Shown here: positions 18,899 to 40,039 of the stretch, in pieces
How positions within the stretch are numbered: the first letter of the stretch is position 1
Layout of the letters: each line of letters opens with the position of its first letter
Virus record (IMG/VR): IMGVR_UViG_3300034061_005389
Span: 1-46,204 of that record
Strand: one strand, 5' to 3'
Origin: a virus
Length of the DNA: 46,204 bases
Notes under the pieces: model-generated
Told to the model about the DNA's origin: nothing
Database searches by the model: none
Seen by the model: only the letters and a program-made list of their open reading frames with translations
Position numbers and translations under genes: made by a program

Positions 18899-19078
18899 TC
18901 ACGGCACTTGCCAACCGTCGGGGACGGTAACGTCAATCGTTGGATGAACCTCGATAGACGCGATGGTATTGTCGCGCCAGAAGTAGCGAGCGCGGGTCTC
19001 GACATCCTCGATAGACTGGCCGGAAAACAGTCGAAGATATCTGCCACCGTCAATGACGGCTGTTACTAGGTAGAGCAT
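18899..19078 (-). CDS. 59-residue protein of unknown function downstream of the tail fibre
   Basis: Starts at ATG 19078 overlapping the fibre stop (TGATG), with GGGAGG six bases upstream, so translation after the fibre gene is well supported. The product starts MLYLVTAVIDGGRYLRLF and ends 'TIDVTVPDGWQVP'. It looks like a small beta-rich protein, not a membrane protein. Small proteins right after fibre genes are often fibre assembly chaperones; that is only a positional guess. Confidence 0.55.
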   Translation of the reverse strand: MLYLVTAVIDGGRYLRLFSGQSIEDVETRARYFWRDNTIASIEVHPTIDVTVPDGWQVP

Positions 19079-22000
19079 CAAGACCTCCCAAAGTAGGTGG
19101 ACGAGAACGTGAAGTCGGGGGGTGCTGCGTTTAGAGAGCCGAAATTGACCCAAAACGCCCGAACTTGCGTGGTGCGCACCGCATTCGTCTGATAGCAGCC
19201 TAGACGTACCGTGTTCGCAAGTAGCGTGTCAGCAGCTAGATCCGTGTACCGAATGGAGTGGATGAGTCGTGGTCCACTCCAGATGTAGATTCGATTTCCA
19301 GCGCGCCGCACAGTCCAAATGAACCAATCATTCGCCACATGGCCCGACTGGAGCTCGCACGCCGCGGTTTCAAGGGTAACGCCCGTGACTGTAGGATATA
19401 GACTTATACGTTTGGTTCCATCTCGGATAACCAGCGCGGACTCATTAGCCGAGCCGACCTGGGACGCCCGCATCTCCACGCGAATCTCCCACGTTGTCTG
19501 GGACGAGGTCAGCTCAGTAAACGTACGGACCATGCCAGCCTTGCTGGTCGCACCACTGACGAGTTGAATAGCGGAACCCGTGCCGACCGTTGGGTACGTC
19601 ACCGTGTTGCCAGTCTCGACCGTCCAATCCGTGGGAACGGAGCCACTTGGGTCCGAGAACGAGTAGGTCCACGAGTCAGCCGCATAGGGGGAGCTGCTGC
19701 CGAGCACCGCGACTTGACTGACCGTGACGATCAAGCTCGGGGTCGCGGGGTGCGGGGAGACCGCGCTGTAGGTCGGCAGCGAGATGGAGACGTCCTGCAC
19801 CGACCACATGAGCTCGATGTAGTCGCCTGCCGCGAGCGTCAGGACGAAGTTCCATGCCGCCACCTCGTTGCCGTTGGTGCTGCCGTGGCTACCGGGGACG
19901 GTGATCTGCGTGTTCGAGTTGTCGACCGCCGTCCCGTTCAGCGCGATCCAGATGTCCGCGTCGTGCTCTTGGCTGTCCGAGTTGTCGAGCTGAGCCGAGA
20001 ACTGGATGTTGTACACGCCGGCATTGGCAACCGTGATGCGGCTACCACTGACGATGGAGACGCCATTTGCCTCGGTACCAGCCGCAGGAGGCGTCTGGTT
20101 GATGGTCATCGCCTTCGCGGTATTGGCGCTCGTGTGGGTCTGGGTGGTCGTATCGAAGAACGACCCGTAGTACCCAGTCGAGGTGCTACTTCCGCTTGAG
20201 ACCGTGGTCCACGTCGGCGCACCGCCGCCAGAGCTCGTCAGGACCTGGCCAGACGTACCACTCGAAGCCGTCGACAGGATTTCGCGGCCTGCCGTGGTGA
20301 TGTCCGTCACGGTCGCAGTGTCCGTGCCGGTGAAGTAGGGCAGCTTGTCTGCCGCCGTCGTGACACCAGCGAGGGCCGTCAACGTAGCGTCAGCCGACTG
20401 GAACGACGTCGCGGCCGAGGTCGCTGCCGTGCCAAGTCCCAGCGTCGTGCGAGCCGTCGCCGCGTCCGCATCGTCGATGAGTGTGCGCGCGAACGAGCTC
20501 AGGGTCGTCGTCGATGCGACGTCAGTGCCGGTGAAGTACGGCAGAGCATCAGCAGCCGTGGCCAACCCAGCGAGCGCAGTCAGGGTCGCATCGACAGGCT
20601 GCTTGTCCGACGCGAGCGAATCCAAACCCGCGCCGACCGTCGCAGGCACGGTCGACCAGTTGGCGCTCGTCGTTGGCGTGTACGCCAGCGAGCGCGCTTC
20701 GTCGAGGAAGTCGAAAGCAACGAGAGCAGTGACGGTGTACGTCGTACCCGCCGCGGGATTGATCGCCCACGCAGGAGACACTGTGATGGCAGTCGCGGTG
20801 TTGGACGAGACCGTCCGGGTCTGCCCCGATCCGGTGCCGCCCGTCAGCGTGATCGTGCCGCCCGTCCACTGGTTCGTCGTAAACGCCTTGCTGGTGTCCG
20901 TGATCGTTGTCGCTGCGCCCCCCGTTGCCGTTCCCGAGCTTGTCGCGGGGTTCAGCGTGCGCGCAGAGAGCACGCCTGACGAGTTTCGGCTGAACGCGAG
21001 CGTGGTGTATGACGTCGAGTCCATCTTGTACCGAGTGCCGCTCGAGGAAGAACCGATGCGGTACTGCGACGCAGGGACGCCGGTGCCCGAGTAGACGCGG
21101 AACTGGTTGACCACGAATCCGATGTACGAAGTCGACGTCGAGCCAGTGACGGCGCCATTGTCGACGGTGCCGAGCATGGAGCGGTCGATGTCGTAGATGC
21201 GGCAGCCGTCAACCTCGCCGAGCGTCAAACGCGGACCGAGCGCAGCAGCCAGCGTGGAGTTGTGGCACTTGAGTGTGATCGTGCCCGTAGGCGCTTTATT
21301 GGCCGTGCCGACCAGCGAGTAGATGGTGCTATTGGCGACCGGCGTCGTGCCCCAAGTCGTCGACAGCGTCAGCGTGGTCGCGGTGTTGGAGACAACCGTG
21401 GCAGTCTGGCCTGAACCCGTCCCTCCGGTCAGGCTGACCGTAGCGCCCGCGTACTGGTTGACCGTCCACGCCTTGCTCGTGTCTTGGAGCGTCGTGCTGC
21501 TCTGCGTGCCAGTGGCCTGCCCTGTACCGTTGCTCCACGTCGACGGACTCGACACGTAGGCATAAGGCACCGCGCCGATGTAGCTGCGGACGACTCCCGC
21601 TTCGCCAACCGTGCAGCCGTCAATCTCGATGATGGACGTGGGCAGCCCGTTGGTCGTCGGTACCGTATAGCTGGTGCCGAGAACCATGCCGCCAATCAGG
21701 TTGGCCTTGTAAGCATAGAAGTTGAACTGGCCGTAGTTGTTGTCCCAGTTGGACCCAACGCCACTGCCCGCGAACGCCGTCTCCTCAAAAGCGAGAGAAG
21801 ACAGACCCGTGACGACGAGCGGGTCGGCGGTCGTGTCGGCTTCGACACCGCCGCCGGCTTCACCCGTGATCTCGAAAGTCATCTGCGCCGAAACGCCCGC
21901 CCACGGCGCAGGGAAGCTGGCCTTGAGTGCTTCCATGCTGGACGCGGGGAAGTCGGCGCGAACCGCCGACATCTTCACGTTGCCGACAATCTGCACGCCA

Positions 22001-23946
22001 TTACCAATCAGCTGCACGCGCGCACGCTTGAAGCCGAGCGTGACGTCTTCCACGTAGCGACCAGGCGCGAGCCTAAAAACCAGCTTCTCCGTGACGAACT
22101 GACCGACGCTTGCGTTGTAGGTGCTGTTGCTTGGGTTGCCGAGCGACGTGACCTGCGAGTAGGCGTAGTTGATGCTCGCGTAGGGCTGACCGAGCGTTCC
22201 GCCACCGGGAGCATCGGTGCCGTTGGTGGAATCGACGTACACGGTGAGCGCGCCTGCGAACACCGCCCCTGAGCCACCTGTCGCCGCAGCAGGCGCCCAC
22301 TCGGAGCCCGACCACGTCAGCACCTCGCCCGAGGACGGAGCCGTCGAGGCCACGTCAGACAGGTCCGCGAGCGCCGCAGCGTGGACATGGTCGCCTCGCG
22401 CATAATCGGCAGATGTACCCGCGCTGGCCGTACCGATGTTCGCAGGCGTGCTAGCATAGGGCGTCTGGGGCTCGCCAGGAGCTCCGTCTGCCCCATCGGC
22501 CCCAGCGGGTCCGATGAGAGAAGCGAGCCATGCGGCCTCATCGCCAACAAAATCATTGGCAACCGCGATCTCGTAAGCGGAAGCGCCATCCACGCCGTCC
22601 ACGCCGGGCGCCCCGTCGGCACCATCAGCGCCCGGAGCGCCATCGGCGCCATCGGCGCCATCGGCGCCGTCAGCCCCAGGAGCGCCATCAGCTCCGGGGG
22701 CTCCATCGGTGCCCTTCTGAGCCAGCAACGTCCAGTACGGGCTGACAGCCGAAGGCGTGTCGCCAACATTGCCGCCATGTGCATCCGTCCGGTACCAAGT
22801 CTCGCCGCCATAGGTTGCGACGTCGCCGATGGCGTAGGGGTCTCCCGCGCCATACGCACCACGGAAGTTCCACAGGGCATCCGCGCCGTCAGCGCCGTCA
22901 GCGCCATCGGCACCTGGAGCGCCGTCAGCGCCATCGGCACCTGGGGCGCCATCGGCCCCTGGCGCCCCGTCCGCGCCGTCTGCCCCAGCAGGCCCGATCA
23001 GCGAAGCCAACCATGCAGCTTCATCGCCGACAAAATCATTGGCAACCGCCACCTCGTAAGCAGAGGCACCGTCAGCGCCGTCAGCCCCAGGAGCGCCATC
23101 TGCCCCATCAGCCCCAGGAGCGCCATCTGCCCCATCAGCCCCAGGAGCGCCATCTGCCCCATCAGCCCCTGCGGGACCAATCAGCGTGGCAAGCCACGCG
23201 GCCTCGGTACCAAAGAATCCATTGGCGACAGCCACCTCGTAAGCAGAGGCGCCGTCGGCACCGTCGGTCCCAGGCGCTCCATCGGCGCCGTCGGCTCCAG
23301 GCGCTCCGTCGGCCCCGGGTGCCCCGTCGGCCCCGGGAGTGCCGATGATCTGGCCTGCATCGACCCACGTCAGCGCCTCAGAATAGATCCAGAGATGACC
23401 GCCGCCCTCGTCAACCACCCAAGCGTCACCAATCTGCTGACCGCTTGAGGGGAGATCCGAGATGAGGCTCTTGGTCCCCTTCAAATCAAAGCTGTAACCA
23501 TTCGCGCCATCGGCACCGGGAGCGCCGTCAGCCCCGTCGGCGCCATCAGCCCCATCGGCTCCCTTCAGGGAGTCCAACCAAGCCGTCTCGTCGCCAACGA
23601 ATCCGTTAGCCACCGCAAGGTCGTAGGCCGAAGCGCCATCAGCGCCATCAGCTCCGTCCGCGCCATCAGCACCATCTGCGCCGTCAGCTCCAGGAGGCCC
23701 GGGAGGCCCAGGGATACCAGAGCCACCGCTCCCCTGATCGCCCGTTTCCGGCAGGAACGAATATTCGAGGCGGCCTCGAGAAGCCTCAAGGACAAGAACC
23801 TCGAACGGGTTGAAGCCGAGCGAGCTCGGACCAACCGCATCGTTGACCTCGAAGGTCTGAGCAACAGGCGTCGCGAGCACCTTGCCAATACCAGGCAGGA
23901 TGATCTCGACAAGCGGAGAAGTCGTGTTGGTGACAACAAGTTGCAT
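19078..23946 (-). CDS. Large tail fibre with collagen-like tracts and C1q/TNF-like domain
   Basis: 1622 residues. Domains in order: a 75-residue N-terminal domain; seven Gly-X-Y collagen-like tracts, mostly GAD/GAP (about residues 78-105, 129-146, 199-230, 254-291, 315-353, 408-452, 476-490); four copies of a small linker 'SAYEVAVANGFFGTEAAWL' (from residues 106, 231, 292, 453); a carbohydrate-binding-like insert (about 356-408, 'YAIGDVATYGGETWYRT'); a beta-helix-like region from about 560 with two copies of a 'GGTGSGQTATVVSNTAT' module; Ala/Thr fibre repeats ('DATLTALAG' twice); a jelly-roll of the C1q/TNF kind ('AGVYNIQFSAQLDNS ... AAGDYIELMWSVQ'); and a C-terminal domain that may be lectin-like. 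Probably trimeric receptor-binding fibre. GAGGG precedes the ATG. Confidence 0.88.
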   Translation of the reverse strand: MQLVVTNTTSPLVEIILPGIGKVLATPVAQTFEVNDAVGPSSLGFNPFEVLVLEASRGRLEYSFLPETGDQGSGGSGIPGPPGPPGADGADGADGADGADGADGASAYDLAVANGFVGDETAWLDSLKGADGADGADGADGAPGADGANGYSFDLKGTKSLISDLPSSGQQIGDAWVVDEGGGHLWIYSEALTWVDAGQIIGTPGADGAPGADGAPGADGADGAPGTDGADGASAYEVAVANGFFGTEAAWLATLIGPAGADGADGAPGADGADGAPGADGADGAPGADGADGASAYEVAVANDFVGDEAAWLASLIGPAGADGADGAPGADGAPGADGADGAPGADGADGADGADALWNFRGAYGAGDPYAIGDVATYGGETWYRTDAHGGNVGDTPSAVSPYWTLLAQKGTDGAPGADGAPGADGADGADGADGAPGADGADGAPGVDGVDGASAYEIAVANDFVGDEAAWLASLIGPAGADGADGAPGEPQTPYASTPANIGTASAGTSADYARGDHVHAAALADLSDVASTAPSSGEVLTWSGSEWAPAAATGGSGAVFAGALTVYVDSTNGTDAPGGGTLGQPYASINYAYSQVTSLGNPSNSTYNASVGQFVTEKLVFRLAPGRYVEDVTLGFKRARVQLIGNGVQIVGNVKMSAVRADFPASSMEALKASFPAPWAGVSAQMTFEITGEAGGGVEADTTADPLVVTGLSSLAFEETAFAGSGVGSNWDNNYGQFNFYAYKANLIGGMVLGTSYTVPTTNGLPTSIIEIDGCTVGEAGVVRSYIGAVPYAYVSSPSTWSNGTGQATGTQSSTTLQDTSKAWTVNQYAGATVSLTGGTGSGQTATVVSNTATTLTLSTTWGTTPVANSTIYSLVGTANKAPTGTITLKCHNSTLAAALGPRLTLGEVDGCRIYDIDRSMLGTVDNGAVTGSTSTSYIGFVVNQFRVYSGTGVPASQYRIGSSSSGTRYKMDSTSYTTLAFSRNSSGVLSARTLNPATSSGTATGGAATTITDTSKAFTTNQWTGGTITLTGGTGSGQTRTVSSNTATAITVSPAWAINPAAGTTYTVTALVAFDFLDEARSLAYTPTTSANWSTVPATVGAGLDSLASDKQPVDATLTALAGLATAADALPYFTGTDVASTTTLSSFARTLIDDADAATARTTLGLGTAATSAATSFQSADATLTALAGVTTAADKLPYFTGTDTATVTDITTAGREILSTASSGTSGQVLTSSGGGAPTWTTVSSGSSTSTGYYGSFFDTTTQTHTSANTAKAMTINQTPPAAGTEANGVSIVSGSRITVANAGVYNIQFSAQLDNSDSQEHDADIWIALNGTAVDNSNTQITVPGSHGSTNGNEVAAWNFVLTLAAGDYIELMWSVQDVSISLPTYSAVSPHPATPSLIVTVSQVAVLGSSSPYAADSWTYSFSDPSGSVPTDWTVETGNTVTYPTVGTGSAIQLVSGATSKAGMVRTFTELTSSQTTWEIRVEMRASQVGSANESALVIRDGTKRISLYPTVTGVTLETAACELQSGHVANDWFIWTVRRAGNRIYIWSGPRLIHSIRYTDLAADTLLANTVRLGCYQTNAVRTTQVRAFWVNFGSLNAAPPDFTFSSTYFGRS
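23081..23161. repeat. Three tandem 27-bp units inside the collagen-like region
   Basis: A 27-base unit starting tcagccccaggagcgccatc occurs three times in a row with no mismatch, followed by a partial fourth copy from 23162. Each unit encodes nine residues (three Gly-X-Y triplets), so gain or loss of units changes collagen length without shifting frame. Confidence 0.85.
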
Positions 23947-30414: not shown

Positions 30415-32502
30415 TCAAAAAGTTCGCACCAGCATATCGCCGCTGTCCCACGGCTCCAACAGGAACGGGAAACGGTGGCAGTTGAATACCACACCAGCCA
30501 CAGCGTCCGCTGCGTCCTTTGACCCGTTGTGAGGATGGTCAATCTTGTCGCGGCGATCCTCGAGCCGGAAGATTTCCTGAAGCAGAGGCTCGTACTCGTA
30601 GATGGAGAACCGTCGCTTGCCGTCCGCCGCGATGTCCATCACGGCATCACGGAAGCAGTAGTAGGGGTCCTTGGTCTTGTCGACCGAGAGGTGCTCCGCG
30701 ATCACCGTCCCCGCCCTTGAAAGTTGGTGCTGCAGGAACTGCTCGGACTGGTGACCGTCAGCCGTCACGCAGCCGATCATGAACCCGTTCGCCCGCATCT
30801 TGTTGAGGACGGCCTCGATGTTGTCGAACTGGATTCGCCCACTCTTGGGGGGAAGCACTTGCAGGACGAGGTCCATGTAGACCCGAGGTCGGTCCATGGG
30901 CGTGCCGTACATGCCGGTCCCGTTGCAGACGGGGCAGACGACGGTCTTCTGACCGCGGCAAGACGCGCAGCGGACCTCAGTCCTGCCAACTCGCCGCTTT
31001 CCAGTGCCCAAGCATCGGGGGCAACTACAGACCTTCGCGCCAAAGCATTCGCCGCAAGAACGCGTGGTCTCACCCTCGGTGAGCCGGTTGACCGTCACCA
31101 AGTTCGAGACGTGACCCATTGCCAAGCCGAAGGCGTCAGACGTAACGCCAGGGTCGGCATGAACGGCCCGAAGCATGTTGGGGTTCACCCGCGGCCGCTT
31201 GGTCACGGGGTCGACCAGCATGTTCAGGTAGAACTCCACCGAGTCGGACAAGGTGGTGGTCTGCGAGGAGAACGGGTGGCGGCATTGGTAGTCCGCGTAG
31301 CCGTCAACCTCAAGTCGCAAACAACGGACGAAGTTCTCACGCTGAGGAATCAGGGGGCGCAGGCCTTCGACCGAGACTCCGGCCAAGTCGCGCAATGAGC
31401 CATCGAGGTCCTTGAGGAAGGACGCTCGCATCTCCTCGGCGCACCAGACCACTCGACCAGTCGCGTGCTCGACCTCATCCGCCGCCAAGATTCTCGACGC
31501 CCTGTTCCCTGAGCCCACTTCCACTGGAAAAGTGCGGCCAGAGAAGATCAGGTTTCCCGCGTTGTCCTTGACGCCCTTCTTCGCTTCCCACTGCGACATC
31601 GAGAAGACGACCGTCGGGTAGGCAGCATCCCCTGCCAGCGCGGTTCGCTCTCGCCGCTCAACGAAGTCGTCCGGGTATTGCCGAGACGAGTCGAGCACCA
31701 CGCGGCAAAGCTGCAGCGTGTTGTTCCGCATGAAGCGCGACTCCATACGGCGAAAGCAGTTCTCGACCAAGTCCTCGGCAACGTCGAGCGTCTCGCCGCG
31801 CTTCTTCGCGGACTCCTCGACGACTGCGTAGAAGTTGCACTCGGTGGCGTACAACCCGAGCACGTCTTCGGAGTGGATGGCCGACTCGCTGGTGACGTCA
31901 GGACGAATGATGATGTTCTTCGTCTTCGACGCGATCTTCGAGGAGAGCTCCTGATTTCGTGGGAACTCGTACTGGAAGTACGGCGTGGCGTCGATTGCCG
32001 TGAGCAGCGGCTCAAACAGCTTGGCCTTCGCCTTCTCCTTCTTCATCGAGACCATGACGATGACGAGAGGCGAAGTGCTCGGCAGATTCAGGAAGTTCTG
32101 CGGGCTAGAGAAGCACGACAACCGGTAGTAGTCGTACATCGCCAGCAGTACTAGGATTTGTGTTTTGCCGACACCGATGGCGCCCGTGAGGATGACCTCA
32201 GTCACGTCACCTTGGGCGGCGGAAATGAACATCTTTTTCTTCTCGGGCCACAGGAAGTCACCCGCGAACGGGCCCGAGTAGTACTGGTTCTCAATCCACT
32301 CTTCAGGCGGCAGGATTGGCCGATCCAGAGGGACAGAACCTTCGCCCAAGAACTTCTGGGAGAAGGCTGAAACGATGCTGTCGAACTTGGATGAAGTGGC
32401 GTTACCGGACTTGACGTAGAAGCTGCCGACAAGCCCTTTGGTGTGCCCGCATTCTCCAAGATCGGCAGGCGCGGATTTGGGGGCTTCGAAGCTGAAGTTC
32501 AT
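30415..32502 (-). CDS. Large terminase subunit with DnaJ-type zinc-finger insert
   Basis: 695 residues. The ATPase domain has Walker A GAIGVGKT (107-114) and a Walker B-like VVEES (227-231, Glu as catalytic carboxylate). The nuclease domain has Asp450 (VHADPG), Asp582 (VTADGHQSEQ) and the Asp663/Asp666 segment (NGSKDAADAVAG). Between the first and second catalytic Asp lies a cysteine-rich insert (about 480-533) with CGECFGAK, CPRCLGTG, CASCRGQK and CPVCNGTG, matching the four CxxCxGxG units of the DnaJ central domain; two extra Cys are at 492 and 523-related positions. The enzyme cuts and pumps DNA into the prohead. Start overlaps the upstream stop by 4 bases. Confidence 0.93.
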   Translation of the reverse strand: MNFSFEAPKSAPADLGECGHTKGLVGSFYVKSGNATSSKFDSIVSAFSQKFLGEGSVPLDRPILPPEEWIENQYYSGPFAGDFLWPEKKKMFISAAQGDVTEVILTGAIGVGKTQILVLLAMYDYYRLSCFSSPQNFLNLPSTSPLVIVMVSMKKEKAKAKLFEPLLTAIDATPYFQYEFPRNQELSSKIASKTKNIIIRPDVTSESAIHSEDVLGLYATECNFYAVVEESAKKRGETLDVAEDLVENCFRRMESRFMRNNTLQLCRVVLDSSRQYPDDFVERRERTALAGDAAYPTVVFSMSQWEAKKGVKDNAGNLIFSGRTFPVEVGSGNRASRILAADEVEHATGRVVWCAEEMRASFLKDLDGSLRDLAGVSVEGLRPLIPQRENFVRCLRLEVDGYADYQCRHPFSSQTTTLSDSVEFYLNMLVDPVTKRPRVNPNMLRAVHADPGVTSDAFGLAMGHVSNLVTVNRLTEGETTRSCGECFGAKVCSCPRCLGTGKRRVGRTEVRCASCRGQKTVVCPVCNGTGMYGTPMDRPRVYMDLVLQVLPPKSGRIQFDNIEAVLNKMRANGFMIGCVTADGHQSEQFLQHQLSRAGTVIAEHLSVDKTKDPYYCFRDAVMDIAADGKRRFSIYEYEPLLQEIFRLEDRRDKIDHPHNGSKDAADAVAGVVFNCHRFPFLLEPWDSGDMLVRTF

Positions 32503-34311: not shown

Positions 34312-34964
34312 CACTCAACCTCCAGGATTTGGTACTCGATGGTCTTGGGGAAGTTCCCCTTGCGCCACATCATCCAGCAGTAGGTAGCGCCATCCGTCTT
34401 GTTGTTTCCGGTGAACGAAGGGCGGCGGGTGAGCCCGAAGATTTTCGTGGGCATCCCGACATCATTCTTCAACCACTTTGTCCGTCCGTGCCGCTTCGCG
34501 CCGTCTAGCAACCAACTGCTTCGAAGCAGGACGAACACCGCGCCGCCGTCACAGACTTCGCGAATGGCCTTGTCGATGAACCTCTGCGCGGTGTTCATGG
34601 CGCCACCATAGGGCGGGTTCATCACCACCAGGTCGATGACCGGAGACGATTTCGGCATGCCCAAGTAGTCGCCGACCTCCATCTGCATCCCGCGCATCTC
34701 GCAGTCAGACGCGAACGACTCGTCGATCTCGTTGCCCAAGAAGTGGTCGTAGCCGAAGGGGCGGAGCGCGTCAGCCACACGCTCCAAGATCACGCCATTC
34801 CCAGCCCCGGGCTCGAAGATGCAGCCGAGTTCCTGCCGCGCAGACTTGCGAGCAATCACGGTTCGGCCAATCTCCTTGATGACCTCGGGGATGATGACGT
34901 CCACGCACCACGCGGGCGTGGGGTAGAAGTCGGTGCCGCCACTTGGCGTGTTCTTCCGGCTCAC
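34311..34964 (-). CDS. DNA methyltransferase, adenine-N6 type (NPPY)
   Basis: 217 residues. The start 'DFYPTPAWCVDVI' is typical of phage-type adenine methyltransferases. Motif I is FEPGAGNG (50-57), binding S-adenosylmethionine; motif IV is NPPYGG (116-121), catalytic. 'VFVLLRSSWLLDG' corresponds to the strand after motif IV, and 'GATYCWMMWRKG' to the C-terminal strand. Such enzymes methylate phage DNA against host restriction or change regulation. The target sequence cannot be predicted. Overlaps the exonuclease gene by 4 bases. Confidence 0.83.
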   Translation of the reverse strand: MSRKNTPSGGTDFYPTPAWCVDVIIPEVIKEIGRTVIARKSARQELGCIFEPGAGNGVILERVADALRPFGYDHFLGNEIDESFASDCEMRGMQMEVGDYLGMPKSSPVIDLVVMNPPYGGAMNTAQRFIDKAIREVCDGGAVFVLLRSSWLLDGAKRHGRTKWLKNDVGMPTKIFGLTRRPSFTGNNKTDGATYCWMMWRKGNFPKTIEYQILEVE

Positions 34965-35755
34965 TTCGCACCTCGCTCACGAAGCTCGGCTCGAAACGCC
35001 GCCTCGGCGCCTGGATGGAGCCCTTCCATCTTCTCAAGGATGAACTTGATGTAGTCCTTCGGGACCGCGTTCAGGGGACGCCCGACGTGCTTGCCTGCGC
35101 CTACCCGAATGACGCTGGGGAACTTGCGGTCGCGGTAGAGCCAGTACGACCAGGCCTCCGACTCGGTCTTGATGAGCCCAGCCGCCTTCGCCTGCACCTC
35201 GACGGCCTTCTGCACGTCCGAAGGAAGGAAACCGTCGTCGAGCATGTGGTAGAGCAGGTCATGCGTCGCCAGCGCGTCGGCCTTCGCGCTGTGCGCGTTG
35301 GTGAGGTCGATCTCGTAGTGCGCGCAGACGTCGCCGAGCTTCCGGCTGCGCATCGACCGCATGTGCCAACGAGCGAAGATGATCAGGTCGATGACCTTGG
35401 AGCGGTCGATGACGATGGGCATACCAGCTCGAGCGAACTCCGCCTCAATCAAGGGCAAGTCGTAGTCGAGCAGGTTGTACCCAAGAATCACGTCAGCCGA
35501 GCGGAACCGCTCGGCGATACCCTCGGCCACCTCCGCGAATGCAGGCGAATCAGCGACGATGGCGTCAGTGATTCTATGTACAGCAGTCGCCTCGGGTGGG
35601 ATTGGGCAGCCCGGGTTGATGTACCGCTGAAGCGCCTTGCGACCAACCTTCGGGTCGTAGAGGACGCCGCCAATCTCGACGATTCGCGCCTGCTTCGGGT
35701 CAATGCCCGTGGTCTCCGTGTCGACCACGAGGATGCGAGAGTCTCTGAACTCCAT
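34961..35755 (-). CDS. DEDDh 3'-5' exonuclease (DNA polymerase III epsilon-like)
   Basis: 264 residues. I chose ATG 35755 because GGAGG lies five bases upstream. Exo I is VVDTETTGID (Asp and Glu bind metal), Exo II is GYNLLDYDLPLIEAEF, and Exo III is NAHSAKADALATHDLL, with the His and Asp expected for DEDDh enzymes. 'CPIPPEATAVHRITD' is the loop usual in epsilon/DinG-type exonucleases. The C-terminal about 90 residues form an extra domain found behind phage exonucleases of this kind. Likely acts in DNA repair, proofreading or host DNA recycling. A promoter-like element lies at 35773-35803. Confidence 0.85.
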   Translation of the reverse strand: MEFRDSRILVVDTETTGIDPKQARIVEIGGVLYDPKVGRKALQRYINPGCPIPPEATAVHRITDAIVADSPAFAEVAEGIAERFRSADVILGYNLLDYDLPLIEAEFARAGMPIVIDRSKVIDLIIFARWHMRSMRSRKLGDVCAHYEIDLTNAHSAKADALATHDLLYHMLDDGFLPSDVQKAVEVQAKAAGLIKTESEAWSYWLYRDRKFPSVIRVGAGKHVGRPLNAVPKDYIKFILEKMEGLHPGAEAAFRAELRERGAK

Positions 35756-35772
35756 GAACACCTCCGCTGGCA

Positions 35773-35803
35773 TCTTTAACGTAATGCAGCGAGAGGTTCA
35801 AGT
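35773..35803 (-). promoter_or_regulatory. Promoter-like element A (shared with 40126-40156)
   Basis: On the minus strand ACTTGA is followed after 18 bases by TTAAAGA. The same boxes with the same spacing occur at 40126-40156; 21 of 31 positions agree, including GCTG, AT and CG in the spacer. It sits directly before the exonuclease gene, which has a ribosome site within 15 bases, so any leader would be very short. TTGA resembles a -35 box; the TTAAAG box is a weak -10. Confidence 0.5.
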
Positions 35804-35812
35804 AGTATCTTA

Positions 35813-37045
35813 CTAAATGCTGGGCCTCAACGAGACCACGAAGGCCGAGCCCATCGGCAACGGGATGTACCGGATGGAGCCGTCCAACTTGGACAGGATT
35901 GCCTGCGCGAGCGCGAGCCCAACCCCAGTTCCTGGGAACTCACTGTGGGCGCGGTAGAACATGGCGAACAACTGGGCGCGGTATTCAGGTGCGATGCCGA
36001 CACCGTTATCGACGAACTTGATGCTGACCATCAGGTCGTCTGGTTCAACCTCGACCGATACGCACGGCACCTTGGCTTGGTTGAACTTCAGCCCATTCTC
36101 GATGAGGTTGTAGAAGACCTCGCCTAGCAGGACCGTGTCCCCCATCACCATGAGCTTGTCGTGGCTTGGGAGGTAGACCATTCCAGCCCGCACCTCCTTA
36201 GCCTTCTTCGCCGCCCCCAAGATGAGGGGCATGATGTTGACTGGGTATGCCTCGATGTTCTTGTTGCGAAGCCCCGTCAGCATGCTGATGGCGACCACAG
36301 TCTCAGCTAAGGACTGGGAACGCTCGCTGATGAGCTTCAGTCGATCCTTAGCCGGCTCTGGGACCGTGTGCCCGTAGTCCTCAAGGACAGAAGTCGCCAG
36401 TGCAGAAGCTGTTCTCGCCGGCCCCTTCAATTGGTGCGCGGTGATTGAAGCGAACCTGGAGAGCTCGGCCGCCATCTGCATGGCGTCGGTGATGTCGGTA
36501 CCGCAGACGAGAATGAACTCGCCGTTCTTCACATACCGCCACTCGAAGATTCGCCCGCGCCCGTCTTTGCAGCGGATGCTGCCACGGTTGCCTGTCCCGC
36601 AGTTCAACCCCGTGACGGCGTCAATCCATGCCAAGCTCTCGAGGTCCTCGGGTTCAATGATGTCCTCAACCGACATCTGGAGCAGTTCTTCCTGATCCCA
36701 ACCTGTCTGCCGAGTCCAAGCCTCGTTGACCCAACTGAACACGATCTCGTGGCGATGAAAGCAGAGGGGCGCAATGGCCATCAGGTCGTTTGTCGCCTTG
36801 GACCAGTACATCAACTGGTGCTGCACCCGCATCGCCGCGGTCTTCATCTGCAGAGTCGTGATGAGCAGCGCGACTGTTGCCGCCCAGAATGAGGACAGGA
36901 GTATGACCTCAGGGGTGAAGGTCACGATGAACCTGTTGATGATGACGCCGACCAGAACATTGGCGGCGACCACAGAAACAACTTCTGCAACGTCCCGCGG
37001 CCCACAGCAGATTCGATGCCGCAACCGGCTTAGCATGGACCTCAT
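35813..37045 (-). CDS. Membrane histidine kinase with PAS domain
   Basis: 410 residues. Two membrane helices (about 21-41 and 47-65), then a PAS domain (about 84-185: 'IVFSWVNEAWTRQTGWDQEE', 'EWRYVKNGEFILVCGTDIT'). The dimerisation helix carries the phospho-acceptor His204 (ASITAHQLKGP, the H-x-L-K/R-x-P form seen in phytochrome-type kinases). The ATP-binding domain has the N box NLIENGLKF (313-321), the G1 box DNGVGIAP (346-353) and a G2/F region 'FYRAHSEFPGTGVGLALAQAI'. All key residues are present, so it should be active. It overlaps the response regulator by 4 bases (ATGA). Two-component pairs are rare in phages; the genes are probably host-derived. Confidence 0.88.
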   Translation of the reverse strand: MRSMLSRLRHRICCGPRDVAEVVSVVAANVLVGVIINRFIVTFTPEVILLSSFWAATVALLITTLQMKTAAMRVQHQLMYWSKATNDLMAIAPLCFHRHEIVFSWVNEAWTRQTGWDQEELLQMSVEDIIEPEDLESLAWIDAVTGLNCGTGNRGSIRCKDGRGRIFEWRYVKNGEFILVCGTDITDAMQMAAELSRFASITAHQLKGPARTASALATSVLEDYGHTVPEPAKDRLKLISERSQSLAETVVAISMLTGLRNKNIEAYPVNIMPLILGAAKKAKEVRAGMVYLPSHDKLMVMGDTVLLGEVFYNLIENGLKFNQAKVPCVSVEVEPDDLMVSIKFVDNGVGIAPEYRAQLFAMFYRAHSEFPGTGVGLALAQAILSKLDGSIRYIPLPMGSAFVVSLRPSI

Positions 37046-37467
37046 TGTGGTACCTGATTGAGGTCAAGCCAGAAGCTGAAGGTCTTCTGGATGACCTGGT
37101 TGAAGTCCACGGGACGAAGAGGTTTCTCGACATAGCCGTTAGTTCGGTTCAGGTAGGCTTTCTCGATGTCGGTCTGGGTGTTGGACGTGGTCATGATCAC
37201 CACGGGCAACTTCCACCCGCTGTGATTCGCGCGGATCACTTTGAGGCAGTCGATGCCAGACATCCTGGGCAGATGGAGGTCGAGAAGAACCAAGTCAAAG
37301 CTCTGCCTGAGCTTCTCGCCATCGAAGAGCTTGTCGCAGGCTACGATGCCGTCTCGAGCTCGAATGACCTCGTAGACCATGCCAGTCGGTTGAAGTACGC
37401 GCGAGATTGCCCGCTCCGCGAGCATCGCGTCTGCGTCGTCGTCCTCCACCAAGAGGATTCGCTTCAC
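37042..37467 (-). CDS. CheY-like single-domain response regulator (Rcp1-type)
   Basis: 141 residues with a GTG start (GTGA overlap with the upstream stop). Receiver motifs are all present: acidic residues VEDDDAD (7-13), phospho-acceptor Asp63 in VLLDLHLPRMSG, Thr in IMTTSN (91-96), and Lys115 in YVEKPLRP. There is no output domain. The C-terminal 'FSFWLDLNQVPQ' resembles the 'FW-L-x-x-V-x-L-P' end of Rcp1-type regulators that work with phytochrome-like kinases, matching its kinase neighbour. A receiver without an output domain acts by protein-protein contact. Confidence 0.87.
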   Translation of the reverse strand: MKRILLVEDDDADAMLAERAISRVLQPTGMVYEVIRARDGIVACDKLFDGEKLRQSFDLVLLDLHLPRMSGIDCLKVIRANHSGWKLPVVIMTTSNTQTDIEKAYLNRTNGYVEKPLRPVDFNQVIQKTFSFWLDLNQVPQ

Positions 37468-37922
37468 GGCTTTAGCCCCAGACCCGGGATCGTCTGAATC
37501 CCGGTCAATTGCTGAAGGATGCCGAGGAAGAGCAGCACGAGGCCAAGGATCAGTGCAGAGCCACCCTTCTCCCACACCGCCTTTGCGACGATGGCGAGGC
37601 GCTCATCCTTGCGCTTCTTGGTCTCCTCTTGGGCCGCCAAGTGCTTGCTGATGAGCTCGAAGAGCTTCTCCTGATGCGTCGTGTGCGCGCTCTGGAGGAC
37701 CTCAAGCATGCGCTGCTGGTCGAACCGCTCAAGGTCGCCTCGAACGCGCTCGACACCGCGGATGATCGAATCGTCCCGTGCCTGCATCGTCGCGATGTGC
37801 TGCTGGAGGACCGAGTCGAGCTTGGCCACGTCTCGAACCAGCATGTCCAGACGAACATCGATCTTCACGATGTCCGAGGCAGGACCTGTAGGTGTTTTCT
37901 TCGGCGTAGGCATGCCGCGCAT
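37464..37922 (-). CDS. Coiled-coil protein with C-terminal membrane helix, coupled to the two-component pair
   Basis: 152 residues. Residues about 20-115 are a charged, mostly helical coiled coil ('VRLDMLVRDVAKLDSVLQQH', 'RVRGDLERFDQQRMLEVLQ'). One membrane helix follows near the C-terminus ('GSALILGLVLLFLGILQQLTG'). There is no signal peptide, so the bulk is probably cytoplasmic. Coupled to the response regulator by GTGA, it may be a partner of the kinase, or a tail-anchored holin-type protein that merely shares the transcript. The ribosome site before either ATG (37922, 37913) is weak. Confidence 0.6.
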   Translation of the reverse strand: MRGMPTPKKTPTGPASDIVKIDVRLDMLVRDVAKLDSVLQQHIATMQARDDSIIRGVERVRGDLERFDQQRMLEVLQSAHTTHQEKLFELISKHLAAQEETKKRKDERLAIVAKAVWEKGGSALILGLVLLFLGILQQLTGIQTIPGLGLKP

Positions 37923-38225: not shown

Positions 38226-39012
38226 CGTCCACCTCAATCCTGCCCCACGACTTCGGCTCGAGGTTCGACCAAAATACTCGTAGGAGGTTCCGCTCAGGCA
38301 AGGTGGTACCAAAGCCTTGCTCAGCCCCGAGCCAGTAGGCCAAGGCCATGACCTGTGGCGGCTCAAGGAAGGTGAGCTCAACCTCAACTCCCCAATGCCC
38401 ATGTTCCGCCGCGCCGTGGCACTGCGCGACGATGTCCGCGAAAACCTGTAGCAGCTTGGGCTCTCGCCAAGCATTGGCCGTCTGCCGCGCCAAGTAGGTA
38501 GCCGTGTCGTGGGTCTGCTTGTCCATAATCCTCGGGATGACGTAGTGCTCCAAGAACGCCTCGCGGCCCCGTTCACGAATGCCGCGCTGGTACTCGTGCT
38601 TGTTGGCCAAGGCGTCCAAGAACCAAGGGTCGAACTCGAACCCGAGCTGACGCAGCTTCACTGCGTCCTCGGGGGTGATTGCTTCCCGAAACGAGAGCCA
38701 GCCGTGGATGGTGCGGCGGTGGATGCCGATGTCGCGCGAGGCGTGCTTGGGGACGTACCCCAAGCTGTAAAGGAAGAGCTCAAGCCGCCGCATCTCTGCG
38801 ACATACCCGGGGCTCGTGAACTTGGCGGCCATCCAACTGTCGGTGTGGAAGATGTTCCGCATCGCCAAGTAGACCTGCCACAGGCAGTGCCGAGTCCATG
38901 GCGTCTTCCGCTTCGGTTCGCCGCCACAGGCTTGGACGTACTTGTCCAGCGCCTGCCCCAGTTTCCTGGCGAGCTCAATCTCGTGCGACTTCCGCACCCG
39001 CTCCCTGGCCAT
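38209..39012 (-). CDS. 267-residue protein with helix-turn-helix-like segment, unknown function
   Basis: I chose ATG 39012, which overlaps the stop of the small membrane protein (TAATG). Near the middle, 'HASRDIGIHRRTIHGWLSF' followed by 'EAITPEDAVKLRQLGFEF' resembles a helix-turn-helix DNA-binding segment. The N-terminal part is helical and basic, the C-terminal part mixed ('VEVELTFLEPPQVMALAYWLG'). It could be a regulator, but the resemblance is weak. The protein is coded within the lysis block, which might reflect control of lysis genes. Confidence 0.5.
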   Translation of the reverse strand: MARERVRKSHEIELARKLGQALDKYVQACGGEPKRKTPWTRHCLWQVYLAMRNIFHTDSWMAAKFTSPGYVAEMRRLELFLYSLGYVPKHASRDIGIHRRTIHGWLSFREAITPEDAVKLRQLGFEFDPWFLDALANKHEYQRGIRERGREAFLEHYVIPRIMDKQTHDTATYLARQTANAWREPKLLQVFADIVAQCHGAAEHGHWGVEVELTFLEPPQVMALAYWLGAEQGFGTTLPERNLLRVFWSNLEPKSWGRIEVDDVSAE

Positions 39013-39191
39013 TAGCCCTCGGCGCGCTTCGGGAACAGGAGGTTCGTGACGAAGTGGGCGGCGAACACGAGGACCATGGTCGTCGTGACCGCAGACAGCC
39101 CTGCGATGAGCATCCCGACGCCGAGGCCGTGGATGTGGATGGCCAGCAGGTTGCTGATGAGCATGATTGCGGCGCCTTCGAGGTACTTCAT
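39012..39191 (-). CDS. 59-residue two-helix membrane protein (holin candidate)
   Basis: A short frame from ATG 39191 to TAA 39012, with AGGA nine bases before the ATG. The gene before ends in ATGA at the start and the gene after begins in the TAATG at the end, so it tiles perfectly. The protein (start MKYLEGAAIMLISNLLAIHI) has two hydrophobic helices separated by 'HGLGVG' and ends in a basic tail (FPKRAEG). Size and topology match class II holins. It follows a SleB-type lysin, which supports a lysis role. Confidence 0.6.
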   Translation of the reverse strand: MKYLEGAAIMLISNLLAIHIHGLGVGMLIAGLSAVTTTMVLVFAAHFVTNLLFPKRAEG

Positions 39192-39577
39192 GGAGAGGTC
39201 CTTTCGTCATCGCGCATGCCAGCGCGGATTCGGTTGTTCTCGAAATCTGGGTCGACCTTCACACCTTCGGCCCAGAGCGTTGACCTATCGGCCGGGAGCG
39301 CAGTCGCGCGGTACTCCAAGCCGCCCTTGTAGCTGTAGAAGTGCGGACGCTGATCGACCGGCATCTCGAAGGTCGTCTGCATGATCCGGTCGGAGAGCAT
39401 CTCGCGTCGGGCCTTGATGATCTCGGCACCCAGCTTCGACCCGCCCACACCATTCCTGTCGATGAACCCAGGAGTAGCGCGAAACGAGTTGGTGCTACTC
39501 GGCTCCCACGAGACGAGGCGAGCAGGCTTACGAAAGACCCGCATAGCCCAGATGATGAAGTCCTCGAGTAGTGTCAT
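39188..39577 (-). CDS. 129-residue protein of unknown function in the lysis block
   Basis: Starts at ATG 39577 with the 4-base overlap (ATGA) to the lysin gene. The first 25 residues (MTLLEDFIIWAMRVFRKPAR) form an amphipathic or weakly hydrophobic helix rich in aromatic and basic residues; the rest is soluble ('LGAEIIKARREMLSDRIMQTT'). Its place between lysin and the small membrane protein suggests a lysis accessory function, but nothing in the sequence shows it. Confidence 0.5.
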   Translation of the reverse strand: MTLLEDFIIWAMRVFRKPARLVSWEPSSTNSFRATPGFIDRNGVGGSKLGAEIIKARREMLSDRIMQTTFEMPVDQRPHFYSYKGGLEYRATALPADRSTLWAEGVKVDPDFENNRIRAGMRDDERTSP

Positions 39578-40035
39578 TGGTTCTTCTCGAAAAAGTAAAC
39601 GCCCTTGAAACGCTTGGACACCTTCACGCTGGACAGCCAGCTTGGCGGTCGTTTCTTGCCGACCTTCTTCAGCCACTTGCTGGCCGTTGCTTCCTCGGTG
39701 AACCACCGGACTCGCCGATTCATCCATGCCGGCTTCCAGACCTGCTTCATGTCGCCGTTGACCAGTTGCCGCGCGAGCACGCGAACGTAGGCAGGCTCCT
39801 TGATGCGGCAGCGCCCGTTGAACTGCTTGGGCGCCATTAGGACCTTAACGATTTTCTCTTTGCGGGTGCCGTCCAAGAGGGCCATTCGATTCTCGATGAC
39901 GTGCGCCACGAGCATTCCCAGGGCATCGTCATTCCCAGCTTCGCCGCAGATGATGTTGGCCACCAGCGACTCGGGGTCGCTCGGGTCAAGGGGCTTCGGA
40001 GAAGCCAAGGCGGCGAGAAGAAGTAGGGAGAACAT
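39574..40035 (-). CDS. SleB-type cell wall hydrolase (endolysin) with signal-like N-terminus
   Basis: 153 residues, start ATG 40035 (GAGG six bases upstream). The first 13 residues (MFSLLLLAALASP) resemble a short signal or signal-anchor. The core 'ANIICGEAGNDDALGMLVAH' followed by 'VIENRM' and 'APKQFNGRC' matches the SleB/Hydrolase_2 family: the Glu in the E-A-x-N/G motif, 'V-A-x-V-I-x-N-R', and 'QF'. SleB-type enzymes cleave peptidoglycan glycan strands. The leader between 40036 and about 40125 folds so that the ribosome site lies in a stem (separate entry). Confidence 0.72.
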   Translation of the reverse strand: MFSLLLLAALASPKPLDPSDPESLVANIICGEAGNDDALGMLVAHVIENRMALLDGTRKEKIVKVLMAPKQFNGRCRIKEPAYVRVLARQLVNGDMKQVWKPAWMNRRVRWFTEEATASKWLKKVGKKRPPSWLSSVKVSKRFKGVYFFEKNQ

Positions 40036-40039
40036 CAAT

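Follow-up and report, generated by a model that had tools for sequence, protein, structure and literature searches.

The window (the whole stretch of 46,204 bases analysed here, which is one entire IMG/VR virus record) carries on one strand three adjacent genes, encoding in downstream order a tail-anchored coiled-coil membrane protein (hereafter the coil protein), a single-domain response regulator and a membrane sensor histidine kinase (Table 1). Each junction is a four-base overlap, and the three genes are probably translated together; at a homologous locus on contig G008 (L101) the coil and receiver genes likewise overlap, there by ATGA. The kinase and the receiver had been presented in a preliminary description as a sensor-regulator pair encoded back to back with a four-base overlap, and Pfam, motif and sequence analysis confirms that the pair is real. 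The coil gene, which lies directly upstream of the receiver gene, is absent from that description.

Table 1 Coordinates of the three-gene cassette and of neighbouring features in the window
Feature	Position	Strand	Basis
Terminase large subunit	30415..32502	-	tblastn, ~29% to annotated phage terminases; 56% to G007 protein
DEDDh exonuclease, next gene downstream of the kinase	34961..35773	-	Pfam RNase_T E=2.4e-26; phrog_192
Sensor histidine kinase: two TM helices, PAS, HisKA-type DHp (H204-Q205), HATPase_c	35813..37045	-	Pfam/PHROGs, motifs, hydropathy, PDB sequence matches, AlphaFold/Foldseek
Overlap of receiver stop and kinase start, four bases (ATGA)	37042..37045	-	sequence
Single-domain response regulator, Rcp1/DrRR-like, GTG start	37042..37467	-	Pfam; PDB matches; alignments
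Overlap of coil-gene stop and receiver GTG start, four bases	37464..37467	-	sequence
Tail-anchored coiled-coil membrane protein, third cassette member	37464..37922	-	hydropathy, AlphaFold, same-position homologues in other phages
59-aa strongly hydrophobic protein, holin candidate by appearance alone	39012..39191	-	sequence; no family match
Probable exported endolysin, hydrophobic N-terminus	39574..40038	-	SleB-like PF07486 Hydrolase_2 E=6e-4, below cut-off; phrog_938 E=2.5e-5

The kinase (410 residues) contains a HATPase_c domain (PF02518, E=2.6e-17) and a PAS fold whose score falls just below the Pfam cut-off, the PAS region being preceded by hydrophobic helices at residues ~18-41 and 47-65, an arrangement that leaves next to nothing in the periplasm. 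Its H box, HQLKGP, includes H204, which is invariant across the clade of phage kinases described below, and the ATP-binding boxes, represented in the window by an N box at 313 (N313), G1 (DNGVGI at 346, D346-G348) and G2 (GTGVGLAL at 372), are conserved among the kinases of that clade. Structure prediction, which the preliminary description had proposed, reproduces the expected succession of helices and strands (TM-TM-PAS-DHp-CA), but the AlphaFold model, made with six sequences, is of low confidence (mean pLDDT 55); Foldseek aligned it over ~370-380 columns to PAS/LOV histidine kinases. An assignment of the kinase as PhoR was rejected, its score being 73.6 bits against the NCBIfam TIGR02966 cut-off of 334 bits.

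The receiver (141 residues; Response_reg, E=1.2e-15) retains the acidic pair E8/D9 as well as D63, T93 and K115, all invariant in the aligned receivers, and ends in the aromatic stretch FSFWLDLN (FSFWLDLNQVPQ end), in agreement with the earlier reading of a CheY/Rcp1-like receiver with Asp63, Thr, Lys115 and an FW end. Its best PDB matches are DrRR (6xvu, E=2e-22), 3heb, Rcp1 (1jlk, E=2e-16, and 1i3c) and RcpA (1k68), DrRR, the partner of the Deinococcus bacteriophytochrome, being the nearest solved relative. Response_reg is the one Pfam domain found, and an output domain is absent from this receiver and from those of every triad described below. Overall, sequence and structure searches retrieved histidine kinases for the one protein and Rcp1/DrRR receivers for the other, far beyond chance, and comparison of sequences supports the assignment of the kinase catalytic core and of the receiver to the lineage of HDLQEP/HDLKAP kinases and Rcp1/DrRR receivers. 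The phytochrome-like ancestry proposed earlier thus stands for the catalytic cores and not for the kinase as a whole, in which Pfam finds PAS and HATPase_c alone and no GAF or PHY chromophore-binding domains.

The coil protein (152 residues) is modelled by AlphaFold as one helix spanning residues 14-140, and a single TM helix follows a VWEKGG motif at its C-terminus. It has no match among Pfam or PHROG holin families. A scan of 398 Pseudomonadota genomes with the coil family returned one weak match (E=8e-4), within a 430-aa frame. Identity within the family is ~20-28%, and because sequences of coils and of TM helices match one another readily the family is only moderately secure.

The description of the window as a contractile-tail phage is borne out by a module comprising portal, head protease, sheath, tube, tape measure and baseplate hub genes, all on one strand and accompanied on that strand by a collagen-like tail fibre. 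This fibre gene (19078-23946, 1,622 residues) aligns only as repeated, variable pieces between contigs that are otherwise 97% identical. No tRNA was detected in the window, and a promoter and terminator scan gave no signal over shuffled counts. The close genomic relatives of the window are uncultivated virus contigs: G001 and G002 are ~97% identical to it over the shared part, and G007 is a diverged relative (96.7 kb) in which nearly the whole structural module keeps its gene order, most of its proteins being 28-70% identical (terminase 56%, portal 47%). Terminase and sheath Pfam searches of the relatives came back mostly empty, but as they also missed the window's own terminase they are uninformative, and phage genes of the relatives were called from PHROG matches and from sheath and baseplate homology instead.

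In both the window and G007 the cassette lies upstream of the terminase gene. The G007 copy (L040), which came from a profile scan of viral contigs, has coil-TM, receiver and kinase genes ordered as in the window, with a kinase 34% and a receiver 39% identical to those of the window; this synteny implies that the cassette belongs to this lineage of phages, either inherited or exchanged repeatedly at a single site. Genes resembling ThyX and thymidine kinase, recognised by eye, flank the cassette in G007 (L040 2803-3681 and 8717-9268). Comparison with G002 gives a dN/dS of 0.113 for the kinase (dS 0.35, dN 0.04) and of 0.044 for the receiver, values far below 1 that indicate working proteins under purifying selection. 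Silent divergence from G002 (L010/L011) across 34961-37467 amounts to 0.17-0.35 for the exonuclease, kinase and receiver genes and to 0.03-0.06 for the terminase, portal and coil genes on either side, a 3-10x excess over the neighbours; the stretch was therefore probably swapped by recombination, hinting at a larger pool of such cassettes.

These data bear on whether the locus could be bacterial chromosome, DNA from a prophage junction or a pair of cargo genes in decay, the first of which the preliminary description had named as what would refute its reading. Bacterial genomes abound in kinases and receivers, and such genes turn up as contaminants in viral collections. The cassette, however, has phage genes on both sides, occupies the same place in a diverged relative, occurs as syntenic copies in three further contigs (G001, G002 and G007) and shows dN/dS far below 1, all of which makes a bacterial or decaying origin extremely improbable, and it is almost certainly a genuine, selected phage cassette.

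The triad of coil, receiver and kinase genes is found in the same order in the group of the window, in G007, in G003 (169 kb) and G005 (40 kb), in G004 (73 kb) and in G008 (315 kb; contig 3300025121_000282), that is, in four unrelated phage backgrounds: G003, G004, G008 (of which parts were compared) and the window group have little in common beyond the triad and a handful of genes. An independent test is provided by the coil gene of G008 (L101), which matches a coil profile built without G008 at E=7e-32. A second type of triad, with coil-TM, receiver and kinase genes again in this order, occurs in G006 (L027) and G015 (L193), where it adjoins a tail sheath gene of ~1,750 residues; these contigs have sheath or baseplate proteins in common with G003. 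Giant tail sheath genes lie directly upstream of the second-type triad (L027 822-8708 in G006, L231 11818-19782 in G015). Profiles of the first and second coil families match each other (E=3e-5, probability 72%), which makes homology of the two families likely, although coiled-coil composition may inflate such a match. Searches of open-access literature found no description of the three-gene unit, and the conserved triad seems to be undescribed.

Phylogeny, also suggested in the preliminary description, separates the two types. In a quick tree of 95 kinase cores, in which many deep forks are weak, the six triad kinases with an AHQ box form one all-viral group on a long stem (SH-aLRT 100), and the kinases of G006 and G015, which have a HELK box, fall into a separate group (SH-aLRT 99) whose neighbours are both viral and cellular. 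When genome contigs were searched with the clade alignment, the best 80 matches listed were distant cellular kinases, with nothing close to the clade among them; the virus-only clade is accordingly a statement on the sampled sequences. The pairing of kinase and receiver is by contrast not as exceptional as had been claimed: the statement that a sensor-regulator pair in a contractile-tail phage is very unusual proves too strong, given that about 40 of 79 IMG/VR loci recovered with the kinase profile have a neighbouring Rcp1-like receiver (counted by hand; part of the contigs were confirmed to be viral), many lying on contigs above 100 kb, and given also a pair in a Microcoleus phage and phoR-like phage genes. 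In the Microcoleus phage (OR578706), where the surrounding sequence is viral, a GAF/PAS-like kinase, annotated as hypothetical, and an Rcp1-like receiver overlap by four bases (L015 7140-9190). Many other records of the 'phages' collection (for instance Listeria phage LM 4-14-1, AGRM01000002) resemble bacterial DNA, and kinase and receiver matches in that collection, mostly in bacterial-looking DNA, were not used as precedents except for OR578706.

The residue next to the catalytic histidine (H+1), overlooked in the preliminary description, sets the phage clade apart. It is Gln in all six kinases (Q205 in the window) and Asp or Glu in 104 of the 105 cellular cores of our sets whose H box was recognised, the remaining one having His. 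The clade thus lacks the acidic residue on which kinase activity depends in the family members tested. In CpxA this residue is described as a general base (PMC3904827), the substitution E372Q in CrdS abolishes kinase and keeps phosphatase activity, and NtrB E140Q behaves as kinase-negative (PMC3510030). Hence, of the earlier statement that all catalytic boxes are intact, the part concerning His204 and the N, G1 and G2 boxes stands and the whole becomes doubtful, yet complete cellular kinases with Gln exist; likewise, both proteins look functional in that both are under selection, but kinase activity as such is questionable. By its fold the protein would be a deviant relative of HisKA-type kinases, and no kinase activity is claimed for it.

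The same residue invites the reading that the kinase is a signal-gated phosphatase or phosphoryl sink, with the receiver phosphorylated by host kinases or acetyl phosphate. The clade-wide Gln, set against the near-universal Asp/Glu of cellular cores, and the behaviour of CrdS E372Q and NtrB E140Q point this way, as does DrBphP, which has a non-acidic residue (His) at H+1 and acts as a light-gated phosphatase of DrRR (PMC8292422), itself the best PDB match of the phage receiver. Phosphatase action is not assured either, however, since H+4 is Gly in the window and Ser in the other kinases of the clade and not the phosphatase-linked Thr, Asn or Glu. Moreover, an HQLRTP box was encountered in 14 of the 100 Pseudomonadota genomes searched, the eight boxes inspected all lying in kinase-like frames, most of them with ATP boxes, and the phage kinases keep their ATP-binding boxes. 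A dedicated phosphatase or sink appears possible but rather unlikely.

Taken as a whole, the locus is best explained, somewhat more probably than not, as a phage-borne three-gene signalling cassette made of the coil protein, a receiver-only response regulator and a membrane kinase/phosphatase. The kinase, a TM hairpin with no periplasmic domain, would sense either the membrane or its coil partner's TM helix and set the phosphorylation of the receiver, perhaps as a phosphatase more than as a kinase in view of the Gln at H+1. As the receiver has no DNA-binding domain, output very probably proceeds by protein contact and not by DNA binding, most simply on the coil protein, which could be sensor partner or effector; that the coil protein is a functional partner at all we consider likely. 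In a different scenario the cassette would rewire the signalling of the host: the viral receiver, once phosphorylated or dephosphorylated by the viral kinase, would compete for the host proteins with which Rcp1/CheY-like receivers interact (in motility, stress or cyclic-di-GMP pathways), and the phage would gain an altered host state instead of control over lysis. Cellular single-domain receivers do act by protein contact, the relatives found in bacteria adjoin other signalling genes, and an action on host circuits has been suggested for phage regulators such as phoR (PMC10987575), but the retention of the triad across otherwise unrelated phages, with a phage membrane protein dedicated to it, suggests an internal partner, and rewiring of the host is the doubtful option.

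For a three-gene cassette with an internal partner, the output might be a late membrane event, with lysis timing or lysis inhibition as a first guess. In the window, a probable cell-wall hydrolase gene in the same orientation lies upstream of the cassette, ~1.7 kb from the coil gene; its product resembles SleB/CwlJ cell-wall hydrolases and is likely an endolysin. The small hydrophobic protein of Table 1 is encoded between this gene and an HTH-like gene. Elsewhere, an SLT-like gene (sub-threshold) lies directly upstream of the coil gene in G007, homologues of the lysis inhibitors rIIA and rIIB (L101 1-2806) within ~5 kb upstream of the triad in G008, and an amidase-like gene ~5 kb from the triad in G003; no lysis gene was seen beside the coil gene in G004, G006 or G015. 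The window and G007, which have the closest lysis contexts, represent one phage lineage, and this, together with the missing lysis gene in G004, the adjoining sheath gene in G006 and G015 and the missing holin match, counts against a lysis-related output, which we hold to be tentative at best. Still less probable is the fullest version of the idea, in which a phage-specific three-component phosphorelay, with a Gln-type kinase/phosphatase and its receiver gating the coil protein, would form a signal-controlled lysis clock common to unrelated phages.

Phages sense small molecules through arbitrium, VqmA and LuxR-type receptors, and carry single borrowed regulators. If the present interpretation is correct, phages would also monitor the cell or its membrane during infection through a phosphorelay of their own, and the recurrence of the triad in very different phages (on contigs of ~28 to 315 kb) suggests a signalling device that is conserved among them. 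The triad offers a compact three-gene system for probing the signal, the receiver's partner and the effect on the latent period, and its clade a natural set of Gln-H+1 kinases for probing the role of that residue.

Among known systems, the cassette resembles DrBphP-DrRR and Cph1-Rcp1 in its receiver-only response regulator and in a related kinase-core lineage with an H-x-L-x-x-P box, and it has in common with DrBphP a non-acidic H+1 residue, His there and Gln in the phage kinases. It differs from these pairs in lacking the GAF/PHY photosensor, in being membrane-anchored with a PAS domain, in having a third (coil) gene and in being carried by phages. The kinase and Rcp1-like receiver pairs of large viral contigs and of Microcoleus phage My-WqHQDG (WOL31350/WOL31351) likewise place a phage kinase beside a receiver-only regulator, but mostly in the order kinase then receiver, with an HDLQEP box and on other branches of the tree, and no coil gene was detected in the same position at these loci. 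Phage phiCDHM1 carries agr genes including agrC, host-like two-component parts that lack the response regulator AgrA (PMC7790227, citing Hargreaves 2014). Soil phages carry phoR/phoB-like auxiliary genes, with phoR dN/dS below 1; these too are host-like, and the phoR-type genes are proposed to act on host PhoB (PMC10987575). Neither set forms a phage-specific three-gene unit. Histidine kinases are also reported from hot-spring phages (PMC6302217). Phage-borne histidine kinases, and kinase-receiver pairs in large viral contigs, are already known, and it is the conserved three-gene unit that the present locus seems to add to them.
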